DNA of 32,478 nucleotides from an uncultured Pseudomonadota bacterium (lineage in GTDB: Bacteria; Pseudomonadota; Gammaproteobacteria; CAJXQU01). The DNA lies in contig CAJXQU010000008.1 in the NCBI GenBank assembly GCA_913058255.1, forward strand, positions 1-32,478. Reading direction: 5' to 3'. The position numbers and the translations under genes were made by a program. Under the pieces are notes generated by a model. It did no database searches, was not told the DNA's origin, and saw only the letters and a list, made by a program, of their open reading frames with translations. Positions 25,734 through 32,405 of the stretch are shown here, piece by piece (the first letter of the stretch is position 1; every line of letters starts with the position of its first letter).

Positions 25734-27620
25734 ATGGATAGTACTCGCCGTTTCCCACTTCTTTCAAAGATAGACTCGCCTGAGGATCTACGTCAGCTAA
25801 CAGAGTCTGAACTGCTTAAAGTGGCCAAAGAATTACGTGATTTTTTGGTTGATGTGGCAAGTCAGAGTGGAGGCCATTTTGCAGCCGGCATGGGTACGGT
25901 CGAGTTAACCATTGCATTACATTATATTTTCAATACCCCGGAAGATCGTCTCGTCTGGGATGTTGGTCATCAAGCTTATCCACATAAAGTGCTCACTGGA
26001 CGTCGTGATCGCATGACAACTATTCGTCAAAAAGATGGAATCACACCTTTTCCTAAACGTTCAGAAAGCCCTTACGACGCATTTGGTGTTGGTCACTCAA
26101 GCACCTCGATCAGCGCCGCTCTAGGCATGCAGATTGCAGCCGATCATGCGGGTATTGACAGAAAATGTGTCGCTATCATCGGCGATGGAGGTATGACCGC
26201 AGGTTTACCATTCGAAGCACTAAATCATGCTGGTGATGTTGGCTCAAACCTACTCGTTATCCTTAATGATAACAACATGGCCATTTCACCAAACGTTGGC
26301 GCACTGTCTAATCATTTTGCGCAAGTATTATCAGGGAAAATCTATTCCTCCGTTCGCGAAGGTGGTAAAAAAGTACTTTCCAACTTGCCTTCTGTAAAAG
26401 AACTAGCCCATAAACTTGAAGAGCATGCGAAAGGACTCATTGTGCCTGGCACCCTGTTTGAAGAGCTAGGATTTAACTATATAGGCCCTATTGATGGCCA
26501 TGATCTGCCTGTCTTAATGACAACCTTACGTAATATCAAAAAGCTTAAAGGCCCACAGCTGCTTCATATCGTCACCAAAAAAGGCAAAGGTTATGAGCGA
26601 GCAGAAAAGGATCCCGTTAAATACCATGGCGTAGCCCCTTTTGATCCCGACAAAGGTATTTTACCATCCGATCAACCTGCTCCCGTGACCTATACGAGCG
26701 TCTTTAGTGATTGGGTTTGTGATATGGCTGCGATAGATGATCGACTCGTCGCAATTACGCCAGCAATGCGTGAAGGCTCTGGCTTAATTCGCTTCGAACA
26801 AGAATATCCACAACGCTATTTCGATGTAGGAATCGCCGAACAACATGCCGTAAACATGGCGGCAGGAATGGCCTGTGATGGCATCAAACCTGTCGTTGCA
26901 ATCTACTCTACATTTCTCCAACGCGGGTATGATCAGCTACTGCACGATGTTGCATTACAGAACTTACCCGTGTTGTTTGCTATAGACAGAGCTGGCTTTG
27001 TCGGTGCAGATGGACCAACACATCATGGCCTTTACGATTACTCTTTCATGCGTTGTTTACCCAACATGGTGATTATGGCTCCTTCGGATGAAAATGAATG
27101 TCGACAAATGCTATATACCGGCATGCAGCTCGATCAACCCTCTTCCGTCAGATACCCTCGCGGTGGCGGTCCAGGCGTTAAGGTTCAACAAAAAATGATC
27201 GCATTAACTGTTGGGAAAGCAGAAATCAAACGACAAGGTAAGAACAAAAAGCTGGCCTTACTTGCATTTGGTTCCATGGTCTCACCCTCTATGGAAGTTG
27301 CTGAGCAACTCGATGCAACCGTCGTTAACATGCGTTTTGTGAAACCTTTGGATACTGAACTAATTACTCAATTTGCTAAAGAGTATGAGAATTTAGTGAC
27401 TCTTGAAGAAAATGTCATAGAAGGTGGAGCAGGCTCAGCTGTTTCGGAAGCCATCTCAGCAGCAGGGCTTACAACAAATATTCTTCATTTAGGAATTCCA
27501 GACCGACTTATTCAGCACGGTTCACAAACTGACAACTTAGAAGATAGTGGCTTGAGTACCAAACAAATAGTTGCAACTGTCCAAACCTATATCGACAAAG
27601 AGACTCAGCAACATACCTAG
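25734..27620 (+). CDS. dxs: 1-deoxy-D-xylulose-5-phosphate synthase
   Basis: Thiamine-diphosphate enzyme joining pyruvate and glyceraldehyde 3-phosphate, the entry and often limiting step of the MEP isoprenoid pathway that feeds hopanoids, quinones and undecaprenyl phosphate. It has 628 residues. The ThDP site is GDGGMTAG from residue 150 with LNDNNMAIS near 177-185. The catalytic glutamate is Glu369 in [15 protein letters not shown]. The [15 protein letters not shown] and [12 protein letters not shown] motifs are present. No Shine-Dalgarno sequence precedes ATG at 25734. Its position back to back with hpnH suggests a copy tied to hopanoid supply; whether another dxs exists cannot be seen. 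Confidence 0.97.
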
Positions 27621-27819
27621 GGGGATAAAGGTTGCTGCCGCTTAAACATTAATCAAGCTAGGCTATAATCAGAATCACCTACTGCTAAATTCACCTTAAT
27701 TTATAAATTAGCCTCAAAATATTTAAATACAACATACCGATAAACTTGCTACTTGCCGCTCAAGTTAGCAGTACTTCCTTCAAAAATCGCACTTTTATAC
27801 GTGTAACTACGTGAAACCT

Positions 27820-27842
27820 GTCTCCTGCAGGAGACGATTTTT
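27820..27842 (+). terminator. Palindrome with T-run: terminator or activator site
   Basis: GTCTCC-TGCA-GGAGAC (27820-27835), then GA and five T. It fits a rho-independent terminator for dxs or an RNA. It also lies about 75-90 bases upstream of the sigma-54 promoter, where an enhancer-binding activator would bind. Confidence 0.55.
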
Positions 27843-27908
27843 ATAAAAAAATAGCCCGACTTCCTTCCATAAGACTCTATCCCATTGTTTTTACAGAACT
27901 TATTATTA

Positions 27909-27924
27909 TGGCACGAATACTGCT
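27909..27924 (+). promoter_or_regulatory. Sigma-54 (RpoN) -24/-12 promoter
   Basis: TGGCACGAATACTGCT: GG at 27910-27911 and GC at 27922-27923 with exactly 10 bases between, against consensus TGGCACG-N4-TTGC (one mismatch). It lies about 95-110 bases before the ATG of the small PEP-CTERM-like protein. Confidence 0.7.
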
Positions 27925-28017
27925 ATTAAAATAAGTATATTCTGTCTATTACACCCATTCTTAAATGTGTATTTAGAACCATGGCAAATTATAGAAGTTA
28001 AGGTAAGGAGATACATA

Positions 28018-28287
28018 ATGAAAAAATCTAAAACGCTTATACTCTCAACAGTATTCGCAGTGGGCGCAGCCTTTAGTAGCGTTTCATCAGCAGAGTCCGT
28101 AGATATTAATGCTCATGCAGCAATATGGAGTACCGCGGCAGCAGGTATCTCAGGCGACCTAGTATCTTCAATTGTTGCAAACCAATCAATAGGTAGTAGT
28201 TCAGCCTCTCCATTTTCCGTTCCGCCTGCATTCTGGTTGTTAGGCACAGCAATGATCTTTCTTTTAAGAAAGCCTCACAATAGCTAA
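28018..28287 (+). CDS. Small secreted protein with PEP-CTERM-like sorting tail, 89 aa
   Basis: ATG at 28018 follows AAGGAG at 7 bases, so this start is chosen over the frame's first ATG at 27967. The signal peptide ends near SSA-ES (residue 25). The mature middle is only about 40 residues, rich in Ala and Ser. The C-terminus, SVPPAFWLLGTAMIFLLRK, has the layout of a PEP-CTERM sorting signal: short VP-P motif, hydrophobic helix with WLLG, then basic residues. Such tails are processed by exosortases in bacteria that make certain exopolysaccharides. The motif is one residue shorter than the common VPxPAA form. The sigma-54 promoter upstream fits known PEP-CTERM regulation. The molecular role is unknown. 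Confidence 0.75.
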   Translation: MKKSKTLILSTVFAVGAAFSSVSSAESVDINAHAAIWSTAAAGISGDLVSSIVANQSIGSSSASPFSVPPAFWLLGTAMIFLLRKPHNS

Positions 28288-28303: not shown

Positions 28304-28342
28304 GATATAAAAAAGCCTCATAAATTGGGGATTTTTTATATC
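28304..28342. terminator. Bidirectional terminator after the PEP-CTERM gene
   Basis: GATATAAAAAA (28304-28314) and TTTTTTATATC (28332-28342) are perfect 11-bp arms around 17 bases in which GCCTC and GGGGA can also pair. A-run before and T-run after the core serve both strands: the PEP-CTERM gene and yhdP converge here. Confidence 0.75.
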
Positions 28343-28517: not shown

Positions 28518-31500
28518 TTAATTTGTAGAAAATCCTCTAGCCCCTGCCTCCTTCCTAGGTTGTGTAAGAGGCTCAACAAGAGATTCTTTCCAACTACCTT
28601 TCAAGGTATATTGGCTTGCGAGTACTTTATCAATAGTCTCAGGGATAATGGGCACAATCTTTTCTGCTATTAACAAAGCCGCGCCAACCCCAGCACCCAC
28701 AGGCCCAAAAAGCACACTAGCTACTGGTAAACTATCAGAAACAGCAGGTGTCACTGTAATGACTTGATCATAGTCTTGCTCTACAAGCCCGACGCGCCCA
28801 ACAATGTCTATATTGGCAGAAGGACCAAGCATATTTAAATTATTTGTGTATGCGTTTCCTCGATCAATTTCAAAATCACCTGAAATTTCATCGAAACTAA
28901 ACCCCTCTTCAAATAGATCATTAAAGTCGAGTGATAACCGCCTCCCAAGTGACTGAATATTAAGCAAACCAAAAACTTTACCCACTCTATTTTTAACCTC
29001 AACTAAACGGCCATTCTCCACTTTCAGAGCCAAGCTTCCTTTTAACTTAGCCAGCTGAAACTCTGTAGGAGAGCTGTTCCACTTTGCATTAATATCAATA
29101 TCAGTTTTTCCTTCTGCAATACCACTAGAACCAAAACCAAACTGCTCTAACAGTGCTCCTAAAGACTCACCTTTTGCCTGCACTCTGAATTTAGAAGATT
29201 GTTGTTTATTTTTAAAAAGCCACTTTCCAACAATATCAACAGAAACATCCGCCGATGACAGCACTATTTTTTCAATGCTAGCACCCATCGCTACCGGCTT
29301 TACATGCATTTGCAAAGATCCTAATTTTAGCTCGTTATATTGAAACCTTTGACTTGATAAAAAAATCTCTGGCAGATCATTAGGATCAATACTGGCAACA
29401 TTCGACTTTCCTTTTGATGATACTAAAGTCAACCGTTCAAAATCTGCTTTAATAGCCTGTTCGGCCAGCTGGTAAGGAACACTAATCATTCCGTGAGCAG
29501 TATCATTTTCAACTTGTAATTCCCAAGAGTTTATACTCGATATCCCTAGAATATGATTGTTCTTGAAGGTTCGGTCTGCTGTTAATAACTGCCCTATAGA
29601 AAGATTAAATGAAAGAAGATCCTTCGTTGGTTTAGTTGAAACTGCTTTCCCAAAATAACGATTAATAAAATTTGACCAAGCAGAAATATCTAAGTCAGAT
29701 AATTTACCGCCTGCCTGCACAAGATAATTATCTTTATCGAAAGACATTGGTTTACCTGCACCAAAGTGTAAATCAACTTTTTTTAGGGTTGTTGTTGCCT
29801 TAACAGAACTTAATTTGATATTTCCTTTGATAACATCAGCATATTCGAAAGTAATTTGCCTGTTTGGTTTTTTAGATAGGGTTGTCGAAATTTTTAACTG
29901 CAGTGAATCGCTTTTTACTTTTCCTAACGGCGAAGGAGCTAAAATATTCATTCCTTTCAAGTTAGAAGTAATGACTAGGCCAGTATCTTCATCAGGCGAG
30001 CCTATATTAGTAGGCAAAGATAAACTAGCTTGCCAGGTAGTTGTACCACTAATGGATTTCAGCACTTGAAGCTGTTCATGCTTCATACCAATTTGAACCA
30101 TTCTATTGGTTATATATTGTCTATCTGCTAAACCCGTCAACCGAACATCTGATCGTGTACTGCCCTTACTTCTATCGACATCCAAGTTAATCGTTATTGC
30201 ACTTTCATAAAGACGCGCTTTTAAAGCCTTAGCGAACCATCGATTTTTCGTAAAAATAAAATCACCGTTAAGTGACTTAATTTTTATTCCTAAAGTATCA
30301 AGAGATAATGCATTTTTTTGTAAATGAACTTTGCCTTTTACTTTTATTTCTCTCCCTTTAGAAAGAGGTATTTCCAGGTGTAAATCTAAATTTAGAGGAC
30401 CTGTTATCTTTATATTTTTTAACTGTTTTCCAATAGATGCCTTTAACGGACTGTTATTGATGAATTTTATCCCATCTTTAACTTGCCCCTTTGCATTACC
30501 ATTGATCAGTAAACGGGGCTTTTCAGTTTTTAACTCTGGGAGTTCAACTGTTGTATTTTTCACGGGCGTGTCATCGATCACAGAGTAAGGTGCAGTGATA
30601 AACATGTTTTTTTCAGTAAACACAACTTCGGCAGTAATCTGTTCTATCCTAGGCCAACCTTTGAAGTAGTCCAAAACACCATTTTCTACATTAAGTCTAA
30701 CCTCAAAAAAACCTTGTTTATCCTCGAAAGGAAATTGATCTAGCGCTCCACGAAAAATAACATGACCTCCCGTTAACTGCCCATTAACAATAGCCTTATC
30801 TAACCATTCGGTTATTTTGGGTTTAAGCAAGTTAGAGGGAATCATCTTTACGATCGGCTCTACATTGCCACGAAAAAAAGTTCCTCTCAGGTCAAGCTCT
30901 GGTGAACTTACCAAGTCTTTTTTAATACTACCCGTCAGTTGAAATTTTAAATCCGGATCTAATAAAGTAATTTGAGGAATGATCATCAACCAACCTTGCT
31001 CACTATTTTTCCACTCAAGATCTCCCGATAACTGTTGTAGATGCAATGGTTCCTCTAACTCACCTGAATGAGTCTGGCGTTGTAAAATAAGATCATGACT
31101 AGTTAAATTCAAAGTGACTATGTCACCACTACTCAGGAAACTTCCTGAAAGATTTTTTACTCCTGGAATCTTCTTATAAGGATCTAACTTCAGATCAACA
31201 AACTCGCCTTTTATGACCATCGGAGAAGATGGGTTCTTCTGATTATATTGTATTTTTAAATTTACTAACTCACCTTTCGGTTGAAAATAGTTTAACTCTT
31301 TTCGTCGTGATTCAGGAATCACAGAGATTAAATCTTCTATACGAAGCTGATTCAATTCAATCTCAAATTCTGGGCTTTCCTCTGAAAAATCACTAGGTAT
31401 TTTTGCTTTAAGAACAAACGCTTGCCACTGTCTCTCTAGTGCTGCTACGGAGATGTTTGGTAAAACTAGGATCCAACCATTTGTGTTAGATTTTTCTAGT

Positions 31501-32405
31501 TGAAAAGTACTACTTACAGCATAAATCGAGTCAGAATTTTTTAACGAAAAGTGCCCTTTTAGATCTGATATTTGTGCATTCTTTAAAGTGATCTGAGTCG
31601 TAGAGTTTAATCGGGCATTATTTAAAGCAATGTTTTCCTTTTGCAAAATCGACGCTAAGGTCTCAAGCTTATCTACAGGAATAAGGTTGACCACATCCAG
31701 CTCTTCAGTACTGAACAACATCTTTGCATTCCACTCTGCACTCAAAGGGTCTCCCAAGACATCGATCACAAAATCAACAGATCCTTTACCTCCATCCAAA
31801 CGTGCTGAGCCGGATAAATCATGTTTATTTTTTAACGGCTTGTTCTTTAGTTGCAGTTCAACGGCTGTCAAACTGAGAGGATTCGGCTGCTCTATTTTTT
31901 CATGCCAAATGATGTTGGAATTCTTAACTTGTAAGTGTGGCTGCTCTAATAACCATTGAGTTAACCCATCATTATTTGTAGTAGGTTGCTCAGTTAATTC
32001 AAGTAGTGAAATCGTGCCATTCTTTTTATGTAAAAGCTCTACATTCAAACCAGATAGTTCAAGATGCGCGATAGTGACTTTCCAATCAATAAGCGAGCGA
32101 TAAAGGTCAACACTCAACATAGCCTGATCAAAATGAGTCAGTGTTTTATGACTGTTTCGATCGAGAACCTTGATCGTTGATAATTTTAACTGTGGAATAA
32201 CCCCACGCCATTCTATCGTGAGCTTACCAACCTCCACAGGAAGCCCTGTTGTTGTTTGCACCCATTCAAGAATACGCGGGCGGAGATCATCAATTTTTGA
32301 ACTTGTAAGTCCGATCAGACTGATCAATAACGCCGAAGTGACAATGACAGAAACTAGCGCGTACCAGCTGATATGGATCACTGCCCGCGAGACACGTTTG
32401 TGCAT
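28518..32405 (-). CDS. yhdP: YhdP family AsmA-like envelope protein
   Basis: Very large inner-membrane-anchored periplasmic protein of 1295 residues, similar in length to E. coli YhdP (1266). One N-terminal membrane helix (about 13-35) is followed by a long beta-rich region starting with the AsmA-type opening (RILEWVQTTTGLPVEVGKLTIEWRGVIPQL). The C-terminal part (NRVGKVFGLLNIQSLGRRLSLDFNDLF) is the characteristic YhdP/DUF3971 end region. In E. coli YhdP works with TamB and YdbH in moving phospholipids to the outer membrane. That matches the lipid theme of the MlaA/HpnN block nearby. Its ATG overlaps the stop of the upstream gene (TAATG), so it is likely translationally coupled. Confidence 0.93.
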   Translation of the reverse strand: MHKRVSRAVIHISWYALVSVIVTSALLISLIGLTSSKIDDLRPRILEWVQTTTGLPVEVGKLTIEWRGVIPQLKLSTIKVLDRNSHKTLTHFDQAMLSVDLYRSLIDWKVTIAHLELSGLNVELLHKKNGTISLLELTEQPTTNNDGLTQWLLEQPHLQVKNSNIIWHEKIEQPNPLSLTAVELQLKNKPLKNKHDLSGSARLDGGKGSVDFVIDVLGDPLSAEWNAKMLFSTEELDVVNLIPVDKLETLASILQKENIALNNARLNSTTQITLKNAQISDLKGHFSLKNSDSIYAVSSTFQLEKSNTNGWILVLPNISVAALERQWQAFVLKAKIPSDFSEESPEFEIELNQLRIEDLISVIPESRRKELNYFQPKGELVNLKIQYNQKNPSSPMVIKGEFVDLKLDPYKKIPGVKNLSGSFLSSGDIVTLNLTSHDLILQRQTHSGELEEPLHLQQLSGDLEWKNSEQGWLMIIPQITLLDPDLKFQLTGSIKKDLVSSPELDLRGTFFRGNVEPIVKMIPSNLLKPKITEWLDKAIVNGQLTGGHVIFRGALDQFPFEDKQGFFEVRLNVENGVLDYFKGWPRIEQITAEVVFTEKNMFITAPYSVIDDTPVKNTTVELPELKTEKPRLLINGNAKGQVKDGIKFINNSPLKASIGKQLKNIKITGPLNLDLHLEIPLSKGREIKVKGKVHLQKNALSLDTLGIKIKSLNGDFIFTKNRWFAKALKARLYESAITINLDVDRSKGSTRSDVRLTGLADRQYITNRMVQIGMKHEQLQVLKSISGTTTWQASLSLPTNIGSPDEDTGLVITSNLKGMNILAPSPLGKVKSDSLQLKISTTLSKKPNRQITFEYADVIKGNIKLSSVKATTTLKKVDLHFGAGKPMSFDKDNYLVQAGGKLSDLDISAWSNFINRYFGKAVSTKPTKDLLSFNLSIGQLLTADRTFKNNHILGISSINSWELQVENDTAHGMISVPYQLAEQAIKADFERLTLVSSKGKSNVASIDPNDLPEIFLSSQRFQYNELKLGSLQMHVKPVAMGASIEKIVLSSADVSVDIVGKWLFKNKQQSSKFRVQAKGESLGALLEQFGFGSSGIAEGKTDIDINAKWNSSPTEFQLAKLKGSLALKVENGRLVEVKNRVGKVFGLLNIQSLGRRLSLDFNDLFEEGFSFDEISGDFEIDRGNAYTNNLNMLGPSANIDIVGRVGLVEQDYDQVITVTPAVSDSLPVASVLFGPVGAGVGAALLIAEKIVPIIPETIDKVLASQYTLKGSWKESLVEPLTQPRKEAGARGFSTN

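Follow-up and report, generated by a model that had tools for sequence, protein, structure and literature searches.

A gene for a secreted protein of 89 aa with an exosortase-type C-terminal tail raises two questions: which activator controls it, and what so short a product is. It lies in a window of 32,478 nucleotides (the whole stretch of DNA that was analyzed) from an uncultured gammaproteobacterium whose genome, G000, comprises 2.78 Mb in 33 contigs. Two sister genomes of the same genus, G001 and G002, completed a comparison set of three draft genomes; in a scan of named genomes, the near relatives of G000 were uncultured gammaproteobacterial MAGs only. In this study, we report that the gene quite likely belongs, as judged from sequence comparison, to a regulon of exosortase-sorted surface proteins under an activator of the GlrR/QseF type.

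The Short Gene and Its Product

The coding part of the locus and its neighbors are as follows.

25734-27620, + strand: dxs, upstream neighbor and synteny anchor (DXP synthase N-domain, E 6.6e-120)
28005-28010, + strand: Shine-Dalgarno sequence AAGGAG (read from the sequence)
28018-28287, + strand: gene of the 89-aa secreted protein with exosortase-type C-terminal tail, ATG at 28018 (ORF, tail comparison)
28018-28092, + strand: signal peptide MKKSKTLILSTVFAVGAAFSSVSSA, with predicted cleavage after residue 25 (likeness to the 209-aa homologue of G001)
28216-28284, + strand: C-terminal sorting tail SVPPAFWLLGTAMIFLLRKPHNS, a VPxP motif with F-S in place of V-P (tail comparison)
28304-28342, + strand: inverted repeat followed by a T-run, probable terminator (repeat/terminator scan)
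28518-32405, - strand: yhdP, downstream neighbor and other edge of the variable slot (PF13116, E 1.6e-230)

The gene sits in a conserved slot between dxs and yhdP, the latter on the opposite strand, and its product consists of the signal peptide, about 40 residues and the tail. An earlier note on this DNA had described an 89-residue secreted protein with a PEP-CTERM-like tail, and the description held: the tail of the ORF resembles those of exosortase substrates in the sister species (E down to 8e-7; tblastn 1.5e-8), with the reservation that the A2 tail profile includes the 89-aa protein and its E-values are partly circular. Overall the tail matches those of the relatives, but the V-P that is near-invariant in the sorting motif is F-S here (FSVPPAFW), and PF07589, TIGR02595 and TIGR03370 gave no match to the protein at E up to 10. 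Therefore, its processing is uncertain. A search of the genome for an exosortase, which the earlier note had proposed, returned two exosortase genes (255.4 and 182.9 bits; cut-off 25.7); XrtD (TIGR04152, 569.7 bits; cut-off 400) was found within a glycosyltransferase operon, while XrtA was borderline (208.7 bits; cut-off 208) and had PrsT next after it. Given the ending VP(V/L)P(P/A)AxWL of the sister proteins, which is VPLPA-like in style, XrtD would be a likelier partner than XrtA.

The homologues in the slot are longer. A 217-aa homologue follows dxs directly in G002 (contig C104) and has the same kind of promoter, and beside yhdP in G001 there are a 209-aa homologue, a fragment-like ORF of 106 aa and a partial further copy. 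The signal peptide of the 89-aa protein is 69% identical to that of the 209-aa protein over 29 aa, but alignment with the homologues is confined to the signal peptide and the last ~55 residues (44%), and the approximately 120 residues between them are absent. On these alignments, the best reading of the protein is a copy of the surface protein of about 210 aa at the dxs-yhdP slot that has been shortened internally. Most simply, an internal stretch was deleted in frame, in a slot that sees duplication and loss of such genes.

Whether the shortened copy still serves the cell is a separate matter. That the ORF is a decaying, functionless relic of which only the promoter is left, a reading compatible with the regulatory model, has in our estimate slightly less than an even chance. 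Most of the mature domain is absent with respect to the homologues, the same slot in G001 holds the homologous 106-aa ORF that lacks a normal tail, and both the altered sorting motif and a low codon score (only 3% of gene chunks score lower) argue for decay. Against this, the frame, signal peptide, Shine-Dalgarno sequence, perfect upstream palindrome, promoter and terminator are all intact, and among these the promoter, frame, Shine-Dalgarno sequence and terminator argue that the gene is still expressed. A minor surface component and a copy in decay are about equally probable. The earlier note had instead suggested a very small matrix or signalling peptide, made as such and set free by an exosortase, and this we find improbable: the secretion signal and tail are present and the regulatory element has been retained, but a second short form was not found in the sister genomes, the slot homologues are of about 210 aa, and the part that would be released matches, in the alignment, the final portion of the larger domain. 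The suggestion has gained no direct support, and the protein looks like a shortened form of the larger surface protein.

Two further observations concern this slot. At L077:8464-9992 (G001, contig C53) there are tandem homologues beside yhdP, one of them fragment-like, which indicates gene birth and loss. An AlphaFold model of the 217-aa relative was of insufficient quality (mean pLDDT 58.6) to allow a fold search.

A Control Region Shared by Sister Genes

Three elements were recognized upstream of the 89-aa gene.

27819-27836, + strand: putative activator site (UAS) TGTC-TCCTGCAGGA-GACG (palindrome; motif and spacing as in sister genes)
27878-27890, + strand: IHF-like site TATCCCATTGTTT, with two mismatches to YAANNNNTTGATW, centered 24.5 bp upstream of TGG (promoter-set comparison)
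27909-27924, + strand: -24/-12 sigma-54-type promoter TGGCACGAATACTGCT (motif match, sister-gene comparison)

The near-perfect -24/-12 element claimed in the earlier note is present at 27909-27924: it shows GG-N10-GC in a TGGCAC...TTGC context, differs by one base from TGGCACGN4TTGCW and is kept at the orthologous position. The 16-bp palindrome that had been placed further upstream was likewise found, as a perfect inverted repeat, GTCTCCTGCAGGAGAC, at 27820-27835 inside the UAS, which is centered about 82 bp ahead of the -24 box GG. The final base of this UAS (TGTC-N10-GACG) departs from TGTC-N10-GACA, the exact form of which occurs in many sister promoters. The presence of rpoN in the genome is presumed from its many activators, one of which was confirmed to have GAFTGA.

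Taken singly, these motifs say little. The string TGGCACGN5TGC had four matches in the genome and two in the reversed control, and a -24/-12 match alone was discarded as evidence because it is at chance level. The exact palindrome occurs once in the genome, and a loose palindrome scan of the same genome, allowing one mismatch, was uninformative (188 matches against 193 in the control). It is the cross-genome comparison that makes the control region convincing, with the combined pattern, and not the -24/-12 string alone, being decisive. GAGAC-N62..90-TGGCAYGN5TGC gave four matches in the three genomes and none in the control, and all four precede genes belonging to the same protein family. The wider pattern TGTC-N10-GAC-N48..78-TGGYNYN6TGC gave 16 matches against one in the control; five were located within ORFs and 11 were intergenic, and all 11 of the latter precede genes whose products carry a PEP/VPLPA-CTERM-type tail. 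The same promoter and palindrome, which the earlier note had proposed to seek before other PEP-CTERM genes, are thus found at other PEP/VPLPA-CTERM genes, and this recurrence supports its reading of a sigma-54-type promoter with an upstream activator site. Judged by this comparison, the control region, made up of an activator site, a likely DNA-bending site and a sigma-54 promoter, is real and common to the sister genes.

The IHF-like motif YAANNNNTTGATW is centered 23.5-25.5 bp before TGG in 10 of the 11 promoters of the set. With at most one mismatch, it occupies this fixed place in 8/11 spacers, when 0.47 were expected and the maximum in 2000 shuffles was 4; it was noticed and tested in the same 11 promoters, the independent check being the class-wide gammaproteobacterial set described below. 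The copy before the 89-aa gene is weak. As for the UAS, counted from the -24 box GG, a census of 30 tail matches in the three genomes placed its center, where a UAS is present, mostly at -82 to -85, with others at about -73 and -62/-63 and one candidate near -103. The centers therefore step by approximately one helical turn, which fits the needs of a looping activator. Several PEP/VPLPA-CTERM genes (loci L100, L103, L106 and L117) have good -24/-12-like sites but lack a UAS in the usual spacing range, which speaks against the model in that these genes may answer to a second activator.

The Candidate Activator

For PEP-CTERM genes, an arrangement was reported in which a motif 1 of 17 nt, with TTTACA as its end, is followed by a spacer averaging 63 nt and by a sigma-54 motif, and it was tied to PrsK/PrsR (Haft et al., 2006; PMC1569441); the earlier note had assigned the 89-aa gene to this two-component system. 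The plan seen here, with activator site, spacer and sigma-54 motif, is alike, and the genome has PrsT (511.6 bits; cut-off 312.2) as well as genes of the XrtA type. However, no protein of the three genomes exceeded the cut-off of the PrsR model TIGR02915 (best score 376.7 bits against 502.6) or of the PrsK model TIGR02916 (best score 97.5 bits against 300), so the search for prsK and prsR advised in that note failed to recover either. None of the UAS sites listed ends in TTTACA, and they are 18-nt TGTC-N10-GACA sites instead of 17-nt ones; a PrsR-type motif looked for before the XrtA-linked PEP-CTERM gene was not seen; and the regulator adjoining EpsB is GlrR-like. The activator of the 89-aa gene is probably not PrsR, and we consider control by PrsK/PrsR distinctly improbable.

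The palindrome corresponds instead to the consensus of QseF (GlrR), TGTCN10GACA (PMC8745638), whose site has also been given as TGTN12ACA with IHF assistance (PMC6075780). An activator encoded on contig C19 of G000 shares 54.6% identity with E. coli GlrR, compared with at most 44.7% for the other activators examined; the recognition helix, ARMAGRNRTEFYKLL, is identical in the two proteins, and the activator contains the sigma-54-contacting GAFTGA motif. Its score against the GlrR equivalog NF011695 was below the cut-off (569 bits against 763) and, therefore, we call it GlrR-like rather than GlrR.

The order of genes at this locus is glmS, the activator, an Hpt-like protein, a hybrid kinase, EpsB (TIGR03013, XrtA/PEP-CTERM glycosyltransferase) and a chain-length protein (TIGR03007), with glmS and Hpt named by eye. 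Palindromes of the type TGTCN10GACR are located upstream of glmS and of epsB in 3/3 species. Besides the NF011695 score, it counts against the model that a scan of the own genome around the palindromes of glmS and epsB gave no -24/-12 element with three or fewer mismatches, and that the kinase of the activator is a hybrid, not GlrK. An Rfam search of the glmS-activator locus for a GlmY-type RNA gave only tRNA above the thresholds.

The glmY promoter region of E. coli K-12 served as a yardstick. It has the same elements, in the order UAS TGTCGCTTTCTGGCGACA, TAACTCATTGATT, UAS TGTCTCTTTTTAGCGACA and TGGCACAGTTACTGC; on the other side of the balance, its UAS and IHF-type sites are more distant from the promoter than those at the 89-aa gene. 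That the palindrome of the 89-aa gene is merely the intrinsic terminator of dxs and no activator site is highly improbable: the repeat does score as terminator-like (stem, 4-nt loop, then ATTTTTATAA) and A and T runs flank the stem in G002, but it lies 200 nt past the dxs stop, and the same motif is found at equal distance from -24/-12 elements before unlinked genes and also at E. coli glmY; the two roles could coexist.

Some other features were noted around these sites. Upstream of epsB, a block downstream of the palindrome, ATGTAACATGTTGTTATTAAAG, is kept in the three species (L068:10877-11190, L142:6783-7100 and L143:9953-10266); no -24/-12 element was seen there in the own genome, and the block is possibly another type of promoter or an operator. 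The segment L149:1-11322 (G000:C19:1-11322) is repeat-rich and by eye resembles a long CRISPR array; after it come type I-F-like Cas genes, also recognized by eye (Csy-like, a 984-aa Cas3-like and a 322-aa Cas1-like). Another good TGTC-N10-GACA palindrome of the own genome (L144:6989-7006; G000:C6:126988) has ATGGCATACTAATTGCT about 146 bp downstream and precedes an ORF for a 73-aa membrane-protein-like product, a possible further target.

Proposed Mode of Control

From the motifs, spacing, synteny, exosortases and activator, as compared at sequence level, we infer the following course of binding, activation, phosphorelay, IHF use, processing and function for the GlrR/QseF-type regulon. A sensor, probably the hybrid kinase and the Hpt protein encoded next to the activator, would phosphorylate the GlrR-like activator, which would bind the TGTC-N10-GACA palindrome, located some 82 bp ahead of the promoter. 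IHF would bend the DNA at its site just upstream of the -24 box, and the GAFTGA-bearing ATPase domain of the looped activator would then open the sigma-54 polymerase complex. The product would be exported via its signal peptide and held by the C-terminal tail, and an exosortase, most likely XrtD, would cut it and release or attach it, provided that the altered motif is still functional. Since glmS and exopolysaccharide genes bearing the same palindromes flank the gene of the activator, joint regulation of sugar-precursor supply, matrix synthesis and surface proteins is probable.

Occurrence in Gammaproteobacteria and Relation to Known Systems

In 369 gammaproteobacterial genomes, the pattern TGTC-N10-GACA-N50..78-TGGYAYN6TGC had 60 matches, compared with 9 in the reversed control. 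Outside the genus, 20 of the 27 loci examined were intergenic, many precede small secreted proteins and most have an IHF-like motif 24-27 bp before TGG, while a PEP-CTERM protein lay behind only one of the 27 (L206). This class-wide layout thus looks general for GlrR-type control, and its use for exosortase substrates would be the special feature of this genus. At L192 and L204, the UAS-IHF-sigma-54 layout stands before secreted proteins of 74 and 81 aa, respectively, with acidic, EF-hand-like motifs. In addition, an Rfam SAM_alpha riboswitch (42 bits) was found at L209:1680-1757, close to a class-wide UAS/sigma-54 match.

The regulon resembles the PEP-CTERM/EpsH regulon (PMC1569441) in its single genes behind long intergenic regions, with activator site, spacer and -24/-12 element, and in the presence of exosortase and EPS genes and of PrsT. 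It differs in the activator site, which is TGTC-N10-GACA here and a 17-nt motif ending in TTTACA there, and in that PrsK/PrsR do not pass the cut-offs while a GlrR-like activator is encoded at the XrtA-type EPS locus. In Aquincola tertiaricarbonis, the PEP-CTERM gene pepA has a mapped TGGCAC/CTGCTT -24/-12 promoter that needs RpoN (PMC9850573); gene type and promoter are alike, whereas PrsK/PrsR are present there and the protein is a different one. With QseE/QseF (GlrK/GlrR) and glmY of the Enterobacteriaceae (PMC6075780, PMC8745638), our system shares the TGTC-N10-GACA site, in most of its promoters an IHF-like site, a sigma-54 promoter, an identical recognition helix and a link to glmS. In contrast, its targets are exosortase-sorted surface proteins, a hybrid kinase and Hpt replace GlrK/QseG, the activator gene comes directly after glmS, and the single UAS is closer to the promoter. 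Regarding XrtD/VPLPA-CTERM sorting (TIGR04152, TIGR03370), XrtD passes its cut-off and the sister tails read VP(V/L)P(P/A)AxW, whereas the 89-aa protein, with FSVPPAFW, falls below the model.

PEP-CTERM genes have been tied to PrsK/PrsR since 2006, and here exosortase substrates carry GlrR/QseF-type sites instead, in a genus without recognizable PrsK/PrsR and with a GlrR-like gene between glmS and XrtA-type exopolysaccharide genes. No mention of QseF or GlrR together with PEP-CTERM was found in the open-licence papers searched. On the comparisons above, it is moderately probable that a GlrR/QseF-type activator holds the place of PrsR in this lineage and acts, by way of a UAS-IHF-sigma-54 layout widespread in Gammaproteobacteria, on the genes of exosortase-sorted surface proteins and probably also on glmS and exopolysaccharide genes. 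In E. coli, GlrR/QseF serves envelope homeostasis. It is known from that species for its control of glmY (PMC6075780, PMC8745638), and the identity of the recognition helix to that of E. coli GlrR makes the link directly testable. If true, this control would account for part of the GlrR regulon outside enterobacteria and would suggest that coordinating the production of cell envelope and matrix is an older, general role of GlrR.
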